DNA of 64,000 nt from assembly GCA_014297435.1 (NCBI GenBank), contig JACOQA010000002.1:62001-126000 (forward strand), in the 5' to 3' direction. This DNA comes from Candidatus Nanohaloarchaea archaeon (lineage in GTDB: Archaea > Nanohalarchaeota > Nanosalinia > Nanosalinales > Nanosalinaceae). Every line of letters starts with the position of its first letter. Positions within the stretch are counted from its first letter, which is position 1. Of this stretch, positions 16,809 to 63,337 are shown piece after piece. The notes under the pieces were generated by a model. The model searched no databases. It was not told the origin of the DNA and saw only the letters and a list, made by a program, of their open reading frames with translations. A program made the position numbers and the translations under genes.

Positions 16809-18857
16809 ATGGAAACAACGGTCATGGTCGGGGAGAAGCCCAAAGTCGCCTCCCGGATCGCCAACGCCCTCGGAAACTACGACACCAAGACCAACCGAGG
16901 GGTCAAGAACTACGTAATCAAGACAGATGAGAGAAAGATAATCATAGCACCTGCCGTAGGCCACATATTCAACCTCGACCAGATCGCCGACAACTGGGAC
17001 TACCCTGTATTCGACGTAGAATGGAAGCCAACATTCGAAACTTCCGACTCGGCCGACTACATGAAGAAATACTACAACAACCTGAAAGACCAGCTGGAAA
17101 AGGCTGACACCTACATCAACGCGTGCGACTTCGACCTTGAAGGCTCTGTTATCGGATACAACGTTATCAAACACTTGACTGGTGCCGATGAAGAAAGAAT
17201 CGAACGCATGAAGTTCTCGACACTGACTCCTTCCGACCTACAGGAAGCATTTGATAACCTGGAGGATTTTGACGCCGGAATGACAGAAGCCGGAATAACA
17301 AGACACATTCTCGACTACTACTACGGTATCAACGTTTCCCGTGCACTGATGAAAGCGGTTAGAGATAACGACCGTTACAAGACTCTTTCTACAGGACGTG
17401 TGCAGGGTCCGACACTTAAGATCTTGGCGGACAGAGAAAAAGAAATACAGGAGTTTGAACCGGATCCTTACTGGGAGCTTTACCTAAAACATGCGGAGTT
17501 TGACGCTCAGTGGGAGGAAGACGAGGACAGGATCTGGGACCAAGAAACAGCGAACGACAAGTTCAACAAGGTATACGGAGAAACCGAAGCAGAAGTCACA
17601 AACGTGAAGGTAAACAACTATACGCACAAGCCACCGATACCTTTCAACCTGACAGGACTACAGAGCGAGGCCTCATCACAGTTCCGTATAAGCCCAAAGA
17701 AGACGCAGTCGATCGCGCAAACACTTTACGAAAACGGGCTTATCTCTTATCCTAGAACCGAGTCACAGAAACTGCCGCCGAAGATCGGATACAAGAACAT
17801 ACTGAACAAGCTGAAGGGTCAGGAAAGCTACGATAATCTGGCGAAAAAAGTACTGAAAAAAGATAAAAACGACAACCTTTACACGACGCAGGGAAGTAAA
17901 GAAGACGACGCACACCCTGCAATCTATCCAACAGGAGAAAGCCCGGGCGGAAAACTGTCAAAACAGGAGAAAAAAGTCTATGATTTAATTGTAAAACGTT
18001 TCTTCGCCGTATTCGGCAAACCAGCCAAACGTCAATCCCTTACCTTCACTCTCGACGTTAAGGAAGAAGAGTTCAAGGCCAAGTCAAAGGTTACAAAGAA
18101 GAGGAACTGGTACGAGCTCTACGATCCATACGTTAAAGTGGATTCGGCCGATCTCCCGGACATGGAGGAAGGCCAGACACTCCAGGTAGAAGACTTCGAA
18201 CTTGTTGACAAAGAAACGCAGCCACCTAACCGTTACAGCCAGTCAAAGATTGTCAACGAGCTTGAGAAACGAGAACTAGGTACAAAAGCGACACGTGCCG
18301 ACACCGTAGACCGCCTTTACGACAGGAACTACATCGAAGAGGAGCCTATCGAAGTAACGGACCTGGGACTTGCGATCGTAAACACTCTAGAGGACTACTG
18401 TGGCAACATCGTCTCCGAAGAGCTTACACGCGAATTCGAGGAAAAGATGCAGGAAATAAGAGAGCAGAAAAACACGAAAGAAGAAGTTCTGGAAGAGGCA
18501 AGAAACGAGTTAGGAGATATACTCGAAAAGTTCAAGGAGAAACAGAAACAGATTGGTTCAGAGCTTGTCGACACAATCGACTCCGAAAGAGAACGCAGAA
18601 GAAGACTAGGTCCATGCGATATCGAGGATTGTGACGGCACCCTAAAAATAATCAAGGCAAACGGCTCAAAATTCGTAGGATGCTCAAACTACCCTGACTG
18701 CGAAAACACATACCCATTACCGAACAACGGAGATATAAAGTCGACAAACGAGGTCTGCGAGGAATGCGGAACACCTAAGATCTTCGTAAGCAGGAAGAAA
18801 GGAAAAGACTACACGATGTGCCTATTTCCGGATTGTCCTACAAAAGATTCTTGGTAG
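16809..18857 (+). CDS. topA: DNA topoisomerase I (type IA)
   Basis: Toprim start VMVGEKPKVASRIANAL, DFDLEGSVIG, GLISYPRTES catalytic region, C-terminal Cys4 zinc fingers. Confidence 0.95.
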   Translation: METTVMVGEKPKVASRIANALGNYDTKTNRGVKNYVIKTDERKIIIAPAVGHIFNLDQIADNWDYPVFDVEWKPTFETSDSADYMKKYYNNLKDQLEKADTYINACDFDLEGSVIGYNVIKHLTGADEERIERMKFSTLTPSDLQEAFDNLEDFDAGMTEAGITRHILDYYYGINVSRALMKAVRDNDRYKTLSTGRVQGPTLKILADREKEIQEFEPDPYWELYLKHAEFDAQWEEDEDRIWDQETANDKFNKVYGETEAEVTNVKVNNYTHKPPIPFNLTGLQSEASSQFRISPKKTQSIAQTLYENGLISYPRTESQKLPPKIGYKNILNKLKGQESYDNLAKKVLKKDKNDNLYTTQGSKEDDAHPAIYPTGESPGGKLSKQEKKVYDLIVKRFFAVFGKPAKRQSLTFTLDVKEEEFKAKSKVTKKRNWYELYDPYVKVDSADLPDMEEGQTLQVEDFELVDKETQPPNRYSQSKIVNELEKRELGTKATRADTVDRLYDRNYIEEEPIEVTDLGLAIVNTLEDYCGNIVSEELTREFEEKMQEIREQKNTKEEVLEEARNELGDILEKFKEKQKQIGSELVDTIDSERERRRRLGPCDIEDCDGTLKIIKANGSKFVGCSNYPDCENTYPLPNNGDIKSTNEVCEECGTPKIFVSRKKGKDYTMCLFPDCPTKDSW

Positions 18858-18861
18858 CGGC

Positions 18862-19347
18862 TTAAATAATCTTGTAACGCTCCTCTAGATTCCTAATCTC
18901 CTCTTTGCTATGCTTGGAAAACTTTGGTTCGTATCTGTAGAAAGTTGAGAAAAAACGGACTAAGGTCCAGTTCTTGGAGCAATATCTGTCTTCATTCCGC
19001 CCGATTTCGGTTTTAAAAACATTTTCAATCTCTGAGGCTACGCTCTCATTCTTCTTTCTTATTCTAAGTTCGTTTCCTGTACACAGTATATTTGAGGCGA
19101 TACCATCTAATCTTGAGTTAGGTTTTAATGGCAATCTAATTTCAGAATTTTCGTTACCTCTAACCCCTACTTTGTATCTGAGTTGGTTTTCTCCCATTAG
19201 CCGATGTGTTTCCGCCTTTCCGAAAAGTTCAACAATTTTCGAAACCGGTGCTGCATACTTATCTTCCTCCCAAGTGTAGACCTGATGTCTGGATATCTCT
19301 AAGTTTGAGGCTATCTGACGCTGATAAAGCCCTCTTTCTTCTCTCAA
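18862..19347 (-). CDS. HTH (XRE-like) protein, possibly homing-endonuclease associated
   Basis: TTG start; LYQRQIASNLEISRHQVYTWEEDKYAAP helix-turn-helix; adjacent to a LAGLIDADG pseudogene. Confidence 0.5.
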   Translation of the reverse strand: MREERGLYQRQIASNLEISRHQVYTWEEDKYAAPVSKIVELFGKAETHRLMGENQLRYKVGVRGNENSEIRLPLKPNSRLDGIASNILCTGNELRIRKKNESVASEIENVFKTEIGRNEDRYCSKNWTLVRFFSTFYRYEPKFSKHSKEEIRNLEERYKII

Positions 19348-54701: not shown

Positions 54702-56624
54702 ATGGCGAAGATAGTCGGAATCGACCTCGGAACAACAAGAAGCGCAGTAGCTTCAGTAGAAGACGGAGAACCCAAAATCCTCGAAAACAGCGAAGGAGAA
54801 AGAGTAACACCTTCCATAGTCGCATTTGACGACGGCGAAAGACTTGTAGGAAAGCCGGCTAAGAACCAGATGCTGACAAACGAGGAAAATACTGTAAAGT
54901 CGATCAAACGCCACATGGGCGAGGACTACGAAGTCAATCTAGAGGGAGAAGCCTACACGCCACAGCAAATCTCCTCGATGATCCTCCAGAAACTCAAGAA
55001 CGATGCAGAAGACAAACTGGGAGACGATGTCGAGAAAGCAGTTATCACAGTCCCAGCACACTTCAACGACGCACAGAGACAAGCAACAAAAGATGCGGGA
55101 GAGATCGCAGGTCTCGAAGTAGAGAGAATCCTCAACGAGCCAACCGCAGCAGCACTCGCATACGGCCTAGACGATGAATCAGAGAAAACAGTACTTGTAT
55201 ACGACTTCGGAGGAGGAACATTCGACGTAACAGTCCTAGAAATGGGAGACGGAATCTACGAAGTCCAATCCACAGAAGGAGACAACAACCTTGGTGGAGA
55301 CGACTTCGACCAGGAAATAATCGACTGGGTACTCGAAAAGTTCGAGGAAGAAAAAGGAATCGATCTTTCCGAGAACGATGAAGCTCTCCAGAGAGTTAGA
55401 GAGAACGCGGAGGAAGCCAAGAAAGAGCTTTCCTCGAGGAAACAGACCAAAATCAACATTCCGTTCATCCATCAGGACGACGAAGGAAACACATACAACA
55501 TCGACTACGAACTCACACGTTCAAAGTTCGAAGATCTTGTAGAAGATCTGATCCAGAGAACAACAGATCCGACAGAGACCGCAATCGAAGATGCAGGCAT
55601 CTCAAAGTCAGAAATAGACGACGTAATCCTCGTAGGAGGAACAACTAGAGTTCCGGCTGTAAAGGAACATGTCCAAGCAATTACAGGGATGGAACCGGAC
55701 CAAGAAGTCAACCCTGCAGAAGCAGTTGCACAAGGAGCAGCGATTCAGGCAGGAAGCATTACAGGAGAGATGGACGACCTACTGCTTCTTGATGTTGCAC
55801 CTCTCAGCCTTGGAGTCGAAGTCAAGGGAGGTTTAACGGAAACACTGATCGAGAAGAACACAACAATCCCTGCAGAAGAGTCCAAAGTGTTCACGACCGC
55901 CCAGAACAACCAGACAGCGGTAACCGTGCACGTTGTGCAGGGAGAGAGAGAAATGGCCAAAGACAACAAATCTCTTGGCCAGTTCAACCTTCAGGGAATC
56001 CCTCCAGCACAGGCAGGACAGCCTCAGATCGAAGTAACTTTCGAAATCGACTCAGACGGAATCCTCAACGTCTCCGCAGAAGAGCAGCAGAGCGGAGAAG
56101 AAGCCTCAATCAGTATAGACGACACATCAAGACTTGACGAGGACGAGATCGAGGAGATGAAAGAACAGGCAGAAAAACACGAGGAAGAAGACAAGCTGAA
56201 ACGTGAGTTCATCGAGACCAAGAACAAGGCAGATCAAATAGCCTCTCAGGCAGAAACACAGATTGACAACTTCAAAGACGAAGTAGACGAAGAGCTGATT
56301 GAGGGAATCGAAGATGCGATCGAAGACGTTGAAGAAGCCAAGGAAGAAGCAGAAGAGATCGACGATCTTGAAGAGGCATCGGAGCATATCGACTCCGCAA
56401 TCGAGGACTTGGAAAACGAGCTACAGGAGATCGGCCAGGAAATGTATGACGGCCAGCAGGGAGGAATGGGCGGTTTCGACCCAAGTAACATGTCAGAAGA
56501 AGATCTGAAGGAAGCAGCCCAGAACATGGGCGGAATGGGCGGAGCTCCCGGAAACTCTGGTGACGATGAAGTAGTCGACGCAGACTACGAAGAAGTCGAC
56601 ACAGACGAGGAGAAGAAAGAATAA
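54702..56624 (+). CDS. dnaK: DnaK (Hsp70) chaperone
   Basis: [33 protein letters not shown], bacterial-type length and GGMGG tail. Confidence 0.98.
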
Positions 56625-56642
56625 AGGAGTTTTTTAGCTCCC

Positions 56643-56825
56643 TTAATTCTCCTTTAATTTTGTGTAACCGAGAACCGCATTACTTATTGCTAATGCAAAA
56701 ATCGCGATCGACATCAAGTATTCGCCGAGGTAGCCGACAATCAGCGCTGAAACGGTTGTAAAAACAACCACGCTAATCCAGAACCCCTTATCATGCTCAA
56801 GATCATCTAAATCGACAAGACTCAT
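56643..56825 (-). CDS. small two-TM membrane protein
   Basis: 60-aa hydrophobic ORF between dnaK and dnaJ. Confidence 0.55.
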
Positions 56826-56858
56826 GAAAACACATCATTCGAACGAGAAATAAAAATT

Positions 56859-57932
56859 ATGGCAAAGGAATACTACGAACTTCTAGGAGTATCAGAAGAC
56901 GCAAGTCAGGACGAAATCAAAAAAGCTTACAGGAAGAAGGCGAAGAAATACCACCCTGATTCTAACAAGGATACTGCGGATGAGGAGAAGTTCAAGAAGA
57001 TAAACAAGGCCTACGACGTTCTTTCAGATGAAGACAAAAGAAAGAAGTACGACCAGTTCGGAAAACAAGGAGTCGAAGGCCATGCCGGAAGAGGTCAAAG
57101 ACGAGCTGCATCAAACTTCCAGGATCTGTTCGAACAAATCTTCGGAGGCGGAGGTTTTGGCAGCCAAAGAAAGAGAGGTGGAAAGAACCTCAAAATACAT
57201 ACTACAATAAGCCTAGGCGAAGCCTACTCAGGCGTTGAAAAAACTTTTGAGGTTGAGAGAAAGGCAAAATGTTCCGAATGCAGCGGAACCGGAGCTGAAA
57301 ATGGCAATACATCAACATGTTCCGAGTGTAACGGTAGAGGTCAGGTAAGAAAAGTTCAAAGAACTCCGCTAGGAAGGATGGAGACCGCGGCCGAATGCCC
57401 TAAATGCAACGGCTCAGGGAAAGTGCCTGAAGAAAAGTGCTCAAATTGTGACGGATCCGGTACCGAGAAGAAAGAAGAGACCGTTACCGTGAAAGTTCCG
57501 GAAGGAGTTCGGGATGGGCAACGTCTCAGAGTCAGAAATAAAGGAAACCGCAGCTCGACCGGTGAGACCGGCGACCTCTACGTCTATATCTCAGTTGAAG
57601 AACATGAAAGCCTTGAGAGAAAGGACCACGACCTGTTTACAACAGTAACCTTAGGTGTGGGGGACGTTGCATTAGGCACTTCAGTTGAGATCGACCATCC
57701 TGACTCAAATATCCAGGTCGATGTTCCGAAAGGCACACAGCCCGGACAAGTACTAAGACTTAACGGAAAGGGAATGCCCTCAAGAAGAGGAAGAAACGGA
57801 GATCTCTACGTAAAAGTGGATGTCGAGATCCCCAAGGATGTTTCAGAAGATCAGAGAGAAGTGCTTGAAGGAATGAGAAAGAAGCCTAAAGAAGACCGTT
57901 CGTTCTTCGAGACAGTGAAAGATTTCATATAA
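56859..57932 (+). CDS. dnaJ: DnaJ (Hsp40) chaperone
   Basis: J domain with HPD, GGGGFG linker, four CxxCxG repeats. Confidence 0.97.
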
Positions 57933-58968: not shown

Positions 58969-60240
58969 CTAAGATCCTATAGAAGAAATAAACTCTGTGA
59001 CACCGACTCCCTCACGGTAAAGGACGCCAGCTACAACAGCGAGACCGGCAAGGATCGAACCTATTAGACGCGTTTCAGAGCCTGAGAAAGCTCCAAGAGC
59101 TGGCGACCCACCACCCCCAGCGAAACTTGTGGTTTGATCAGAAGTCTCAAAACCGCCACCGGACCCGACACGTCTTAAGGTAGAGGTCTCAGCCTCCATA
59201 CCGCCCTTTCTAGCGACGAACCTAATCCGGTTTAGACCTTCCTCCATGCTTAAAAGCGTGCAGAAACGGTTTTCCGCATCTTCCTCACGCTGCCTTTCAC
59301 CATTCCTGTATATTGTAACTTTTTCGGCGTCACCCGAAATATCAGCGCATGCCCTCACCGTTCCGGGTTCAGATATAGGAGGCATATCTATATCACTTAT
59401 TTCAAGACCAGAGACTACATCGAGCTCTAAGGTTCGTGATTCAGAACCTGCCGAAACCTGGAAATCGATTTTACCTGGTTCAGAGGGAGTAAAACCTGTC
59501 CTGAAATCTGTGTTAGGTTCAACCGTTTGTTCAAAGATTCTCTGGTCCCCAGCAAAAACATTTACAGTCTGAGAAGATGGGAATTCATGGTTTCCGCTGA
59601 CATAGACCGTTTCACCTAAAGAAACTTGTTCCTGGGAAAGCTTTACATCCAAGTTCTGCCCTTGCACAACTACTTCAGGCCAGTCTATCGATGAAACTCC
59701 GTCACCTGAACCCCCACCGTTCGTATTATCTGAAGAGTCTTGATCATCTTGATCCGAAGAGTCAGAGTCTTCATCATTATCCGAGTTTTCATTAGAGTCG
59801 TCCTGAGAATCTCCGTCATCAAACCTGGATCCATCCTCATTAGAATCATCGGTTGAATCACCGCTATCAAACCTGGAACCATCTTCACCTGCATCATCTG
59901 TAGAGTCTCCACTATCGAATCTGGAGCCGTCCTCGTTTGAGTCATCAGTTGAATCTCCGCTATCAAATCGAGAGTCGTCACTACTCTCGTCAGAGGTGTC
60001 GGTCGAATCTTGTCGATCTCCCGTATTGTAATCGTCTTGAGAGTCACCGCTATCAAACCTAGAACCAGGACTTTCCGTGTCATCGTTCGAATCTCCGCTG
60101 TCGAATCTATCACTGGATCCTTCCGAGTAATCGTTGAAGTCGTCCTGAGAGTCACCGCTCGCGAACCGCTGACCAGCCACAAGAGATGCTGAAGAGGCAA
60201 GAAGAATTAGGATACCGAGGGCTAGAGCTGTCTTCTTCAT
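58969..60240 (-). CDS. secreted repeat-stalk protein with Cys-containing Ig-like domain and C-terminal TM (R2)
   Basis: Signal peptide MKKTALALGILILLASSASLVAG; seven RFxxGDSxDD repeats; VRACADISGD...RFCTLLSMEEGLN domain; C-terminal TM. Confidence 0.85.
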   Translation of the reverse strand: MKKTALALGILILLASSASLVAGQRFASGDSQDDFNDYSEGSSDRFDSGDSNDDTESPGSRFDSGDSQDDYNTGDRQDSTDTSDESSDDSRFDSGDSTDDSNEDGSRFDSGDSTDDAGEDGSRFDSGDSTDDSNEDGSRFDDGDSQDDSNENSDNDEDSDSSDQDDQDSSDNTNGGGSGDGVSSIDWPEVVVQGQNLDVKLSQEQVSLGETVYVSGNHEFPSSQTVNVFAGDQRIFEQTVEPNTDFRTGFTPSEPGKIDFQVSAGSESRTLELDVVSGLEISDIDMPPISEPGTVRACADISGDAEKVTIYRNGERQREEDAENRFCTLLSMEEGLNRIRFVARKGGMEAETSTLRRVGSGGGFETSDQTTSFAGGGGSPALGAFSGSETRLIGSILAGLAVVAGVLYREGVGVTEFISSIGS

Positions 60241-60247
60241 AACGGTT

Positions 60248-61090
60248 TCAGTCGCAGTAGTTGTTAGGGTTGGCGTTTTCGAAGAGTTGGTCTGCCTGCG
60301 ATACAGTCAGGTCTTCCTGAGAATCGGCGTCGTTAAGTTGAATTACGTATGAATCCGGTCGACCGTCATTGTCCGAGTCCCTAAAGTCAATATCGTAACC
60401 TATATCGCCTTCGACAGCAGTAAGATCTTCCAAGGGTTCGTCTCCAATCGCATCTCTGACGTCCTCTTCGACAAAGTAACCGGACACACCTCCTTCATTA
60501 CGGTAACAGGCAGCTTCCGGAAGCTCATTCATAGTGTCGTAGAACTTGGTTTCACCTGTCTGATCGATCTCGCCCGGACTTTCACCTGAATCTGTCGGCT
60601 GCTGCGTCTGCTCAGAAGCCTGATTGTCTTCCTCAGTCTCTTGGTTAGGAGTGTTGGAATCGTTTGAGTTTTGATTATTATTTGCGCCTTGGTTTGTTTG
60701 ATCTTCGGTCGAGGTTTGATTCGATGTCTGTCCTGTGGCTGTACCAGATGTTTTTTGAACTCCCGAGCCAGATCCAAGATCTCCATCTATCTTTCCGTCA
60801 GCTCCATAATCGGCGCCTATATATCCTGCTGCGCCTATACCGGCTGAAGCGAATGTTGCTTGTAATACAGAGCGTCTTCTTTCATTCACCCCTTCTTCGG
60901 TGTAGACTCCGGCTGCGTTGTATAATGTGTCTCTTGGAACTGTGTAGAGTTTTTTTATTCCGCCACCGAGCATGTGGGCGACCTCCCCTAGCCCTCCGCC
61001 TTTTCCTTCAAGGTTTTCCGAGGCATTTCCGCCCACGGAGGAGCTTTCTGATTCTCTTCTGTTTCCAGCGTCTCCTGGTTCTTCAGACAT
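60248..61090 (-). CDS. RRxVLQ-anchored acidic surface protein (T2)
   Basis: NERRRSVLQATFASAGIGAAGYIGA, N/Q/T-rich linker, C-terminal domain with two Cys ending NNYCD. Confidence 0.8.
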   Translation of the reverse strand: MSEEPGDAGNRRESESSSVGGNASENLEGKGGGLGEVAHMLGGGIKKLYTVPRDTLYNAAGVYTEEGVNERRRSVLQATFASAGIGAAGYIGADYGADGKIDGDLGSGSGVQKTSGTATGQTSNQTSTEDQTNQGANNNQNSNDSNTPNQETEEDNQASEQTQQPTDSGESPGEIDQTGETKFYDTMNELPEAACYRNEGGVSGYFVEEDVRDAIGDEPLEDLTAVEGDIGYDIDFRDSDNDGRPDSYVIQLNDADSQEDLTVSQADQLFENANPNNYCD

Positions 61091-61200
61091 CGTGAGTCAC
61101 GGTAACCCTTTAGAAGTCTTTTATTAAGTCCATTTGTTTTCTTGACCGAAATAAACAGTTCTTTGTAATATAAACGTTATATCTATGGTTCAGAAAGAAA

Positions 61201-62058
61201 TTAGGAAAATATGAGAGATGTGACGACAAATCCGCCCGTAATAACGGACAGAAGCGCCTTCGAAATAAAGCCCAAACTTGTTGGAGCGCCCGCTGTCGAT
61301 GCACCCGCTTGCTCCTCAACTTGAGACTCCGCACCACCCGAGGTTAAGACCCTGATCTCAGCCGTCCTCGAGTCAGAGGAGCCTTGATTCTCGACCACAA
61401 GCTCGAAGCTGTTCACGCCTTCAGCACCCGGAGAGATGCTAAAGCATAGATCACCAGAGGCTTCAGCCGAATCAACAAGGTTGTCGTTCCTGTAGAGTCT
61501 GACGTCCGCCTCCCGAGTTGAATCTATACTAGAGCATGCCTCTATTATCTCACCTTCCGAAACCACGTCCGGAATCTGGAAGCTTCGGATCGAAACACCT
61601 TGGTTCTCAGACCGTCCTAAGTCTATATTCGGCAGCTCTATTCCTTCACCTGTTCCCGAAGATTGGTTTTCGTCCCTTCCTTCTACTGTGTCATCTAGAT
61701 CCCCCGGGCTTTCCATTTCAGGGCTGTTCTGCTCTAACTCATCATTCCTGTCACCTGGACTTTCCATGCCAGTTGATTCGTTTTCAAGTTCATCGTTCCT
61801 ATCTCCAGGGCTTTCAAGTTCAGTCGATGAGGTGCTTTTAGAGGTCTGGTTGTTCCTGTCACCTGGGCTCCGGTTACTGCTTGGACGCGATTCCATATCT
61901 CCCGGGCTTTCACCCGAATCCATTTCTCCCGGAGATACCCTGCTTGACTCATACCTATCGGCAGGGCTTTTCGGGCTGGAAGCCGTTTGGGCAACTGTGA
62001 AAGTAGCCATTAAAATGAACGTGGTAAGAAGTAGGGCTGTTCGGCTTTTTGGAGGCAT
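61201..62058 (-). CDS. secreted SPGD-repeat stalk protein with Cys-containing Ig-like domain and C-terminal TM (R1)
   Basis: Signal peptide; ESPGDRNDELE repeats; IIEACSSIDSTREADVRLYRNDN...LCFSISPGAEGVN domain homologous to R2; C-terminal TM. Confidence 0.85.
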   Translation of the reverse strand: MPPKSRTALLLTTFILMATFTVAQTASSPKSPADRYESSRVSPGEMDSGESPGDMESRPSSNRSPGDRNNQTSKSTSSTELESPGDRNDELENESTGMESPGDRNDELEQNSPEMESPGDLDDTVEGRDENQSSGTGEGIELPNIDLGRSENQGVSIRSFQIPDVVSEGEIIEACSSIDSTREADVRLYRNDNLVDSAEASGDLCFSISPGAEGVNSFELVVENQGSSDSRTAEIRVLTSGGAESQVEEQAGASTAGAPTSLGFISKALLSVITGGFVVTSLIFS

Positions 62059-62747
62059 CAGCCATCACACTCGTATAGCGCTCCTACTACCTCCGGATTC
62101 TGAAGTGCGTCCTGGTAGATTTCCTGCTCCACCGGTTCGTAGTTTCCACGACCATCACTGAGCAGTACCTCTTCCTCGCCTAGAACATCCGTGTTGTGAG
62201 GATCTCTGTCAACTAGAAATACGTATTCCTCGTCTGAGTCAACCATCAGGCCGTCGCCAGGTAGCGTGTCCGAAGGCCATGTTTCGTACTGGTCAAGATT
62301 TAAATCGCCAAGTCTTTCGTATTGACCTCTAAGCCCTTGAACCCAATCAAGTTCGACCGCTAGGTCACATCCTCTGTTCGCGAGGGGTTCTGGCGGAACT
62401 CTTGCACCTGCTCCTGTGTCTTGGGGTGTGCTCTGGTTACTTCCTGTCCCGTTACCTGTTTGGTTGCCGTCACCTCCTGCACCCCCTCCAAGCTGTTCAG
62501 ACTTCCAGTTTATAGCGGCTCCATCACCGTCTGTAGCTTCTAGTATTCCGAAGCCTACAACGCCGACACCTGTGGCTGCACCTAAAGCTCCTAGACCTGT
62601 CTGGAGTACTTCTCTCCTGTTCGGCAAATATTCTTCGTTCGTATCCTCCGTAGTGCGGTCTTTTTCTATTGTGGTTTCTTCAGTAACTTTTGTTTCTTCA
62701 TGTGTGTTTTCGTCTTCGTCCCAATTTTCGTCTTCCGGGTCTGACAT
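62058..62747 (-). CDS. RRxVLQ-anchored acidic surface protein (T1)
   Basis: PNRREVLQTGLGALGAATGVGVVGFGILEA, G/N/Q linker, C-terminal domain with two Cys ending YECDG. Confidence 0.8.
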   Translation of the reverse strand: MSDPEDENWDEDENTHEETKVTEETTIEKDRTTEDTNEEYLPNRREVLQTGLGALGAATGVGVVGFGILEATDGDGAAINWKSEQLGGGAGGDGNQTGNGTGSNQSTPQDTGAGARVPPEPLANRGCDLAVELDWVQGLRGQYERLGDLNLDQYETWPSDTLPGDGLMVDSDEEYVFLVDRDPHNTDVLGEEEVLLSDGRGNYEPVEQEIYQDALQNPEVVGALYECDG

Positions 62748-62959: not shown

Positions 62960-63337
62960 ATGAAGTTCGCACACACGATGCTCAGAGTCTCGAACCCAGA
63001 AAAAGTCATCGAATTCTACACAGAAGCATTTGACTGGGAGATGAAACGAAAGAAGGAGATGGAAACCTTCACCCTATACTTCCTTGGACCGGAAGATCAG
63101 ACCGCCGAGCTTGAACTCACATACAACCATGGGGAAGACGATCGATACGAGAAAGGCGAGGGCTATGGACACATCGCAATCCACACAGAAGAAGGTCAGT
63201 CACTGGAAGATGCGTATCGAAAGGCTGTTGATGCCGGTGGCGAGGACTACCGAGCTCCCGACGAATGTCCTGGAAACTACGCTTTTGTGAAAGACCCTGA
63301 AGGTTACGAGGTAGAGATCTTAGCGAGATCACCTTAA
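62960..63337 (+). CDS. gloA: glyoxalase I-like (VOC superfamily)
   Basis: MLRVSNPEKVIEFYTEAFDWE, GYGHIAIH, AFVKDPEGYEVEIL. Confidence 0.92.
   Translation: MKFAHTMLRVSNPEKVIEFYTEAFDWEMKRKKEMETFTLYFLGPEDQTAELELTYNHGEDDRYEKGEGYGHIAIHTEEGQSLEDAYRKAVDAGGEDYRAPDECPGNYAFVKDPEGYEVEILARSP

Follow-up and report, generated by a model that had tools for sequence, protein, structure and literature searches.

Two divergent copies of a paired T-R gene module for predicted surface proteins in a nanohaloarchaeal genome

The T-R locus

The 64,000-nt stretch of DNA analysed here (the window) spans positions 62,001 to 126,000 of contig JACOQA010000002.1 from a Candidatus Nanohaloarchaea archaeon (assembly GCA_014297435.1), a salt-loving, dwarf and probably parasitic archaeon, whose genome measures 1.0 Mb and is 99% complete. 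It contains four adjacent minus-strand genes in the order T1, R1, T2, R2 (Table 1). A preliminary description made from the DNA sequence alone had listed the four open reading frames (ORFs), and its strands, coordinates and motifs all proved exact. The T1 stop and the R1 start overlap by one base (tgatg), T2 and R2 are separated by 7 nt, and 110 nt lie between R1 and T2. The comparisons below suggest that these genes constitute two divergent copies of a T-R module, in which T carries a predicted twin-arginine signal anchor and R carries immunoglobulin-like (Ig-like) domains and a C-terminal membrane anchor.

Table 1. Features of the T-R locus, with positions in the window (KD, Kyte-Doolittle hydropathy; TM, transmembrane segment; AF2, AlphaFold2; TRF, Tandem Repeats Finder)
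Feature	Position	Strand	Characteristics and basis
T1	62058..62747	-	Acidic N-region, RR signal anchor, linker, C-terminal ectodomain bracketed by two Cys; ORF call; anchor resembles SVXNc Tb (z 6.3)
T1 twin-arginine signal anchor, weakly hydrophobic, NRREVLQTGLGALGAATGVGVVGFGI	62547..62618	-	RR present in all ten T proteins; 12 bits to PF10518 TAT_signal against a cut-off of 22.7; KD maximum 1.75
R1	61201..62058	-	Sec signal, SPGDRNDELE repeats, one Ig-like domain (Cys pair), C-terminal TM; profile E=1e-41
R1 Ig-like domain with Cys pair	61336..61599	-	BLASTP: R2 E=2e-6; large surface protein E=9e-10
R1 C-terminal hydrophobic membrane anchor	61204..61278	-	KD 1.77
T2	60248..61090	-	N-terminal motif GGGIKKLYTVPRDTLYNAAGV, RR signal anchor, low-complexity linker, C-terminal ectodomain bracketed by two Cys; ORF call
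T2 conserved N-terminal (cytosolic) motif K-K-x-Y-T-x-P-R-D-x-[IL]-Y	60905..60964	-	Kept in SG9 Ta and Tb
T2 twin-arginine signal anchor, weakly hydrophobic	60806..60877	-	Invariant RR column; KD 1.19
R2	58969..60240	-	Sec signal, RFDSGDSTDD repeats, two Ig-like domains, C-terminal TM; profile E=9e-75; AF2
R2 distal N-terminal acidic repeat region	59701..60171	-	Repeat registers
R2 48-nt tandem repeat, 3.7 copies, 73% matches	59789-59967		TRF
R2 Ig-like domain 1 (Big_7-like in relatives)	59413..59652	-	AF2 strands 15-94 of modelled segment; PF17957 above cut-off in two relatives
R2 Ig-like domain 2, invariant Cys pair	59119..59403	-	AF2 strands 98-192 of modelled segment; Cys invariant in R alignment
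R2 C-terminal membrane anchor	59017..59067	-	KD 1.77

Conservation of the T-R pair

A profile of the Ig-TM region of the R proteins was searched against 28 Nanosalinales genomes, and the phylum-level search took in those same 28. Eight R genes were found in six of them: two in the source genome, two in SVXNc, and one each in SG9 (CP012986), NHA25, B1-Br10_U2g21 and PL-Br10_U2g27 (U2g21 and U2g27 below). All five relatives belong to the Nanosalinaceae, and SVXNc is Ca. Nanohalococcus occultus, a cultivated symbiont. Every one of the eight R genes has a T gene directly upstream on the same strand, at distances of -1, 7, 11, 36, 9, 6, 12 and 17 nt, so that the synteny search suggested in the preliminary description bears out the pair in all six genomes. 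SVXNc and SG9 also carry T genes without a neighbouring R, and the T set from the six genomes numbers ten proteins.

The pair has a preferred address in the genome. It adjoins dnaK-dnaJ and a gene of the VOC family in five of the six T-R genomes, and the equivalent spot in relatives was located through the neighbouring VOC gene. At this spot J07AB43, M3_22 and B1-Br10_U2g19 have no T-R pair, which makes the module accessory in the Nanosalinaceae. In the window, dnaK-dnaJ and the VOC (glyoxalase-like) gene flank the locus at 54702-57932 and 62960-63337, and the spot as a whole is syntenic across the Nanosalinaceae with inserts of variable content. Lipoprotein-like genes that also contain an RR adjoin T-R in SVXNc (L014:6601-7371, RRKLLAGAG..LAGC) and in NHA25 (L018:8891-9562, RRDYLNDY..LAGC); they are possibly a third component.

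Architecture of the R proteins

All eight R proteins start with a Sec-like signal, followed by a stretch rich in Asp, Ser and Gly, one or more Ig-like domains and, at the C-terminus, a hydrophobic anchor; two Cys residues are invariant among them. They range from 285 to 603 residues in length, with R1 at 285 and R2 at 423. Homology between R1 and R2 covers the Cys-containing Ig-like domain and the C-terminal TM (BLASTP E=2e-6, shuffle z=11), as had been proposed along with their Sec signals; R1 lacks the first Ig domain and corresponds to the second only. Structure prediction, another of the checks proposed at the outset, gave two all-beta domains (beta-sandwiches) for R2 when AF2 was supplied with five sequences, with a predicted local distance difference test (pLDDT) of about 90 and blocks mostly at 84-95. 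Foldseek matched this model, at low TM-scores, to generic Ig tandems such as PECAM-1, ICAM-1, FcgR and RbmA, adhesion molecules among them. The Pfam family Big_7 (PF17957) exceeds its cut-off in two relatives, the U2g21 R and SVXNc Rb. An Ig-like beta-sandwich fold is therefore predicted for both proteins, for R2 by AF2 and Foldseek and for R1 by homology.

The acidic repeat region of the R proteins, 71-344 residues long, varies in both length and sequence. It had been described as a stalk; since the anchor is C-terminal and the repeats lie N-terminal to the Ig domains, the repeats would instead form the outer, distal end of the protein. The further statement that these regions have diverged completely is too strong, as a [W/F]-acidic/Gly 9-mer is common to the repeats of SVXNc, SG9 and U2g, representing three genera (P<0.0005 in each held-out test). 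No such motif was seen in R1, and R2 is marginal (P=0.02). NHA25 fails the held-out test (P=0.8), and with R2 marginal as well a universal R repeat motif was rejected.

T proteins and the Tat pathway

Each of the ten T proteins has an N-region that ends in a twin arginine followed by a short, weakly hydrophobic, Gly/Ala-rich segment. These segments have KD values of 1.1-1.75 and are mostly less hydrophobic than the signals and TMs of the R proteins (1.5-2.75). Such lower hydrophobicity is usual for signals of the twin-arginine translocation (Tat) pathway. The preliminary description had called the RRxVLQ stretch of T1 and T2 a hydrophobic segment; judged by its motif, a twin arginine before a weakly hydrophobic h-region that both proteins share with the rest of the set, it is better read as a Tat-type signal anchor. 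Neither protein passes the curated Tat models, as T1 stays below the PF10518 cut-off (Table 1) and T2 has no PF10518 match. The NHA25 T scores 19.9 bits against TIGR01409 in the genome search and 15.8 in hmmscan, around a cut-off of 16.7.

The source genome encodes TatC (4.8e-57) with TatA adjacent (G000 C1:90396-91256), and export of T by Tat is plausible there on the strength of these genes. TatA also stands beside TatC in SVXNc (G006 C1:685901-686739) and in five other Nanosalinales. For SVXNc, TatC alone has been reported and the pathway judged likely inactive (PMC10266531); the TatA match beside it, at 47 bits and above its cut-off, argues against that judgement, and the T-R module bears on whether Tat works in these cells. 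Gain of tatC has been inferred to be early, with later loss in some lineages (PMC9765267). A census of TIGR01409 found that Tat-negative genomes still keep a few matches. A tie between T-R presence and Tat was rejected, as the two show no association over the 28 genomes (TatC in two of the six T-R genomes).

Outside the anchor the T proteins differ widely. T2 and both SG9 T proteins share the N-terminal motif GxxKKxYTxPRDxxY (N-half E=2e-7 and 1e-6), and the anchor region of T1 is closest to that of SVXNc Tb (z=6.3). In four T proteins (T1, T2, the NHA25 T and SVXNc Tc) a Cys pair brackets the ectodomain, and the second Cys is 1-3 residues away from the C-terminal end; the other six T proteins have none. 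The SG9 and U2g21 ectodomains gave no convincing match to PDB sequences, and matches of T linkers to phrog_15511 (PHROG) and PD-T4-6 (PADLOC) were set aside as low-complexity artefacts. By eye, DxDxDG-like acidic loops resembling calcium-binding loops can be picked out in the T2 ectodomain (60248-61090) and in SG9 L067:13243-14025 (DSDNDGRPD; DYDSDGWANIID).

Divergent modules and modular shuffling

The arrangement of the four genes had been taken for an alternating tandem duplication, with T1 and T2 as well as R1 and R2 forming homologous pairs. As a simple event this is unsupported. The similarity of T1 to T2 is confined to the RR anchor (BLASTP E=0.16) and their C-terminal ectodomains show none (shuffle z=-1.8); the motifs and the two Cys in each C-terminal domain hold, and the homology goes no further than the anchor. 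With only this anchor in common, duplication of T1 and T2 over their whole length is not demonstrable. R1 is closer to a large surface protein of its own genome (E=9e-10) than to R2 (E=2e-6), and hence no recent tandem duplication can be read from the R genes either; R1 is also closer to the NHA25 R than to R2, and the R tree does not resolve these relationships. Neither T1 and T2 nor R1 and R2 are each other's closest relatives along their full length, as duplication of a single T-R ancestor within the lineage would have made them. A recent tandem duplication was accordingly rejected, and on these comparisons the locus is two divergent modules side by side.

The large surface protein places R in a broader family. 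The R Ig tandem also matches this single protein of ~900-1660 residues in 20 of the 28 genomes (E ~1e-20 to 1e-40), and almost every Nanosalinaceae genome encodes it. In the source genome it lies on contig C8 at ~213 kb and has carboxypeptidase-regulatory, PEGA, Big_1 and PKD domains. In SVXNc its gene is just upstream of the diphthine synthase gene, which is numbered SVXNc_1032 and neighbours an operon, SVXNc_1003-31, called archaellum-like (PMC10266531). By its position, the large protein is therefore a member of that operon, encoded at its end. A conserved cluster that ends at diphthine synthase (L081 6947-12073; L082 7677-12339) corresponds to the published operon and contains the large Ig/PKD/carboxypeptidase-regulatory surface protein, a second Ig-rich membrane protein, and coiled-coil and small membrane proteins.

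Exchange within the T proteins is seen most clearly in SG9, where the Ta and Tb genes (L067:13243-14025 and 18126-18950) share a DNA identity of 0.75-0.93 over most of the ectodomain, with one stretch at 60%, and of 0.37-0.58 in the N-half. This pattern likely reflects gene conversion or a cassette swap. The source genome is the opposite of SG9, with the RR anchor in both T proteins and unrelated ectodomains, and the ectodomains of SVXNc Tb and Tc share 51%. These comparisons show modular shuffling of T anchors and ectodomains. The outer parts of both proteins, the T C-terminal domains and the R N-terminal repeats, vary much more than do the anchors and Ig domains, which supports the diversification proposed earlier.

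Possible function and its alternatives

The reading that we favour, with about even chances of being right, is that the locus carries two divergent copies of an accessory two-gene surface cassette, and that T and R together form a unit for recognition or adhesion during cell contact, where the partner is plausibly a haloarchaeal host. T and R would be translated together and both would reach the cell surface. T would be held by its uncleaved N-terminal twin-arginine signal anchor, N-terminus inside, and a flexible linker would display its small, rapidly changing C-terminal domain. R would be exported by Sec and held by its C-terminal helix, C-terminus inside, with its Ig domains near the membrane and the acidic repeat array outward. 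With the T N-terminus and the R C-terminus both inside, the two ectodomains should face outward, where the proteins may form a stoichiometric two-protein surface unit whose specificity would be changed by T ectodomain swaps and by expansion or rewriting of the R repeats. Recognition or adhesion would suit proteins whose anchors are conserved and whose outer parts vary, and the surface module of the preliminary description is supported by the export signals, membrane anchors, Ig folds and recurrence in six genomes. One SVXNc R has a PKD domain and, since its map position fits, is probably SVXNc_0035, which has been proposed as a host-interaction protein (PMC10266531).

Several observations weigh against this reading. 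Most family members in the 28-genome search, including the near-complete G004, G009 and G010, have no T-R pair, and so symbiosis as such can do without it. No TatC was detected in four of the six T-R genomes (SG9, NHA25, U2g21 and U2g27), though its absence from U2g27 is weak, that genome being only 78% complete. Export of T by Tat is therefore not general and the topology of T in those genomes is uncertain: either T enters by Sec or insertion with a retained Tat-like anchor, or it is not exported. Hydrophobicity is marginal in the T2 and SG9 T segments. The structure prediction proposed for T gave a confident result for T2 residues 50-80 only, with no usable AF2 model of the ectodomain (pLDDT 41). 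Salt-in organisms commonly have acidic low-complexity sequence. Finally, surface exposure, a T-R complex, a contact function and the host as target are all features that we infer from the genes.

The main rival, which we consider somewhat unlikely, is a structural envelope module, in which the R Ig domains would integrate into or under an S-layer or a filament-associated envelope, T would help with anchoring, and the acidic repeats would be a salt-adapted brush with no specific partner. The homology of the R Ig tandem to the near-universal large surface protein speaks for it, as do the free variation in length of the R N-terminal region and its Asp/Ser/Gly-rich low complexity, as expected of salt-in surfaces. 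A structural part would, however, be expected in all relatives, while R is present in 6/28; a purely structural anchor needs neither unrelated T ectodomains in the two modules nor their reshuffling; and the aromatic repeat motif common to three genera suggests a binding motif.

The retention of T in the four genomes where TatC was not found also raises the idea, in our view decidedly unlikely, that T is a membrane-tethered cytosolic factor, perhaps a regulator or a helper in R assembly or export, whose RR segment is vestigial or a monotopic membrane contact and whose C-terminal domain remains on the inner side, at any rate in genomes without Tat. The low hydrophobicity of several T segments would suit this, and the N-motif, on the cytosolic side, is the best-conserved and best-modelled part of T2. 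Yet all five T proteins of the TatC-negative genomes retain RR without exception, the NHA25 T clears the TIGR01409 threshold in the genome search, a Cys pair of the kind typical of exported domains brackets the C-terminal domain in four T proteins, and C-terminal variability fits exposure. We hold it very improbable that T-R serves surface exclusion, phage reception or competition among nanohaloarchaea rather than host contact: variable outer domains and an accessory distribution generally fit arms-race proteins, but there was no defence or phage family match beyond low-complexity ones, no toxin or immunity-like domain was found, and neither viral contigs (single-protein queries) nor plasmids yielded relatives. 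Returning to the recognition or adhesion unit, a bolder form of it, which seems rather unlikely, would make T-R a dedicated modular recognition system of ectosymbiotic archaea, a hetero-complex of Tat-delivered T and Sec-delivered R, two membrane proteins translated together, whose specificity for host or partner would depend on an exchangeable T domain and a multivalent array of R motifs, with cassettes swapping at a fixed locus beside dnaK-dnaJ.

Comparison with known systems

T and R match no named family in the libraries searched (Pfam, Tat-signal models, PHROG and PADLOC), and the literature found does not describe the pair; in these libraries, the earlier statement that no named system has this layout holds. 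Haloarchaeal Tat signal-anchor proteins resemble T in having RR-x-[FVL]-[LV] followed by a weakly hydrophobic Gly/Ala-rich segment; T differs in its long acidic N-region (to ~170 residues), its lack of a lipobox or AxA site, and its retention where TatC is not detectable. Bacterial Ig-like adhesins and biofilm scaffolds (Big_7; RbmA via Foldseek) have a tandem Ig-like fold as in R, but the likeness is at the fold level only, with 11-19% identity and low TM-scores.

Closer parallels come from the symbionts themselves. The giant SPEARE proteins (PMC6642349; PMC10266531) are, like R, symbiont surface proteins with a C-terminal TM, Ig-like repeats and a variable outer part. The family is defined by multi-kilo-residue length, LamG/adhesion domains and a cytosolic VirB4/TraG-like ATPase (PMC6642349; PMC10266531), whereas Pfam found no LamG, protease or VirB4/TraG-like ATPase domain in R1 or R2; R proteins have 285-603 residues against up to ~9,400, and their gene context differs. 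Nanohaloarchaeal Ig/PKD/LamG surface proteins (e.g. SVXNc_0035; PMC10266531) and the large surface protein are, like R, Sec-exported with Ig-like (and PKD) domains, and the latter is detectably homologous to the R Ig tandem. R is set apart by its short length, its distal acidic repeats, its C-terminal TM and its constant pairing with T; the large protein lacks both a T partner and an obvious C-terminal TM.

The players proposed to date in host recognition by nanohaloarchaea are the giant SPEARE proteins and single Ig/PKD/LamG proteins. Ig-type surface proteins of these symbionts are already known; the T-R pair is a compact and directly testable candidate for host contact, conserved yet variable, and present in the SVXNc-Haloferax co-culture.

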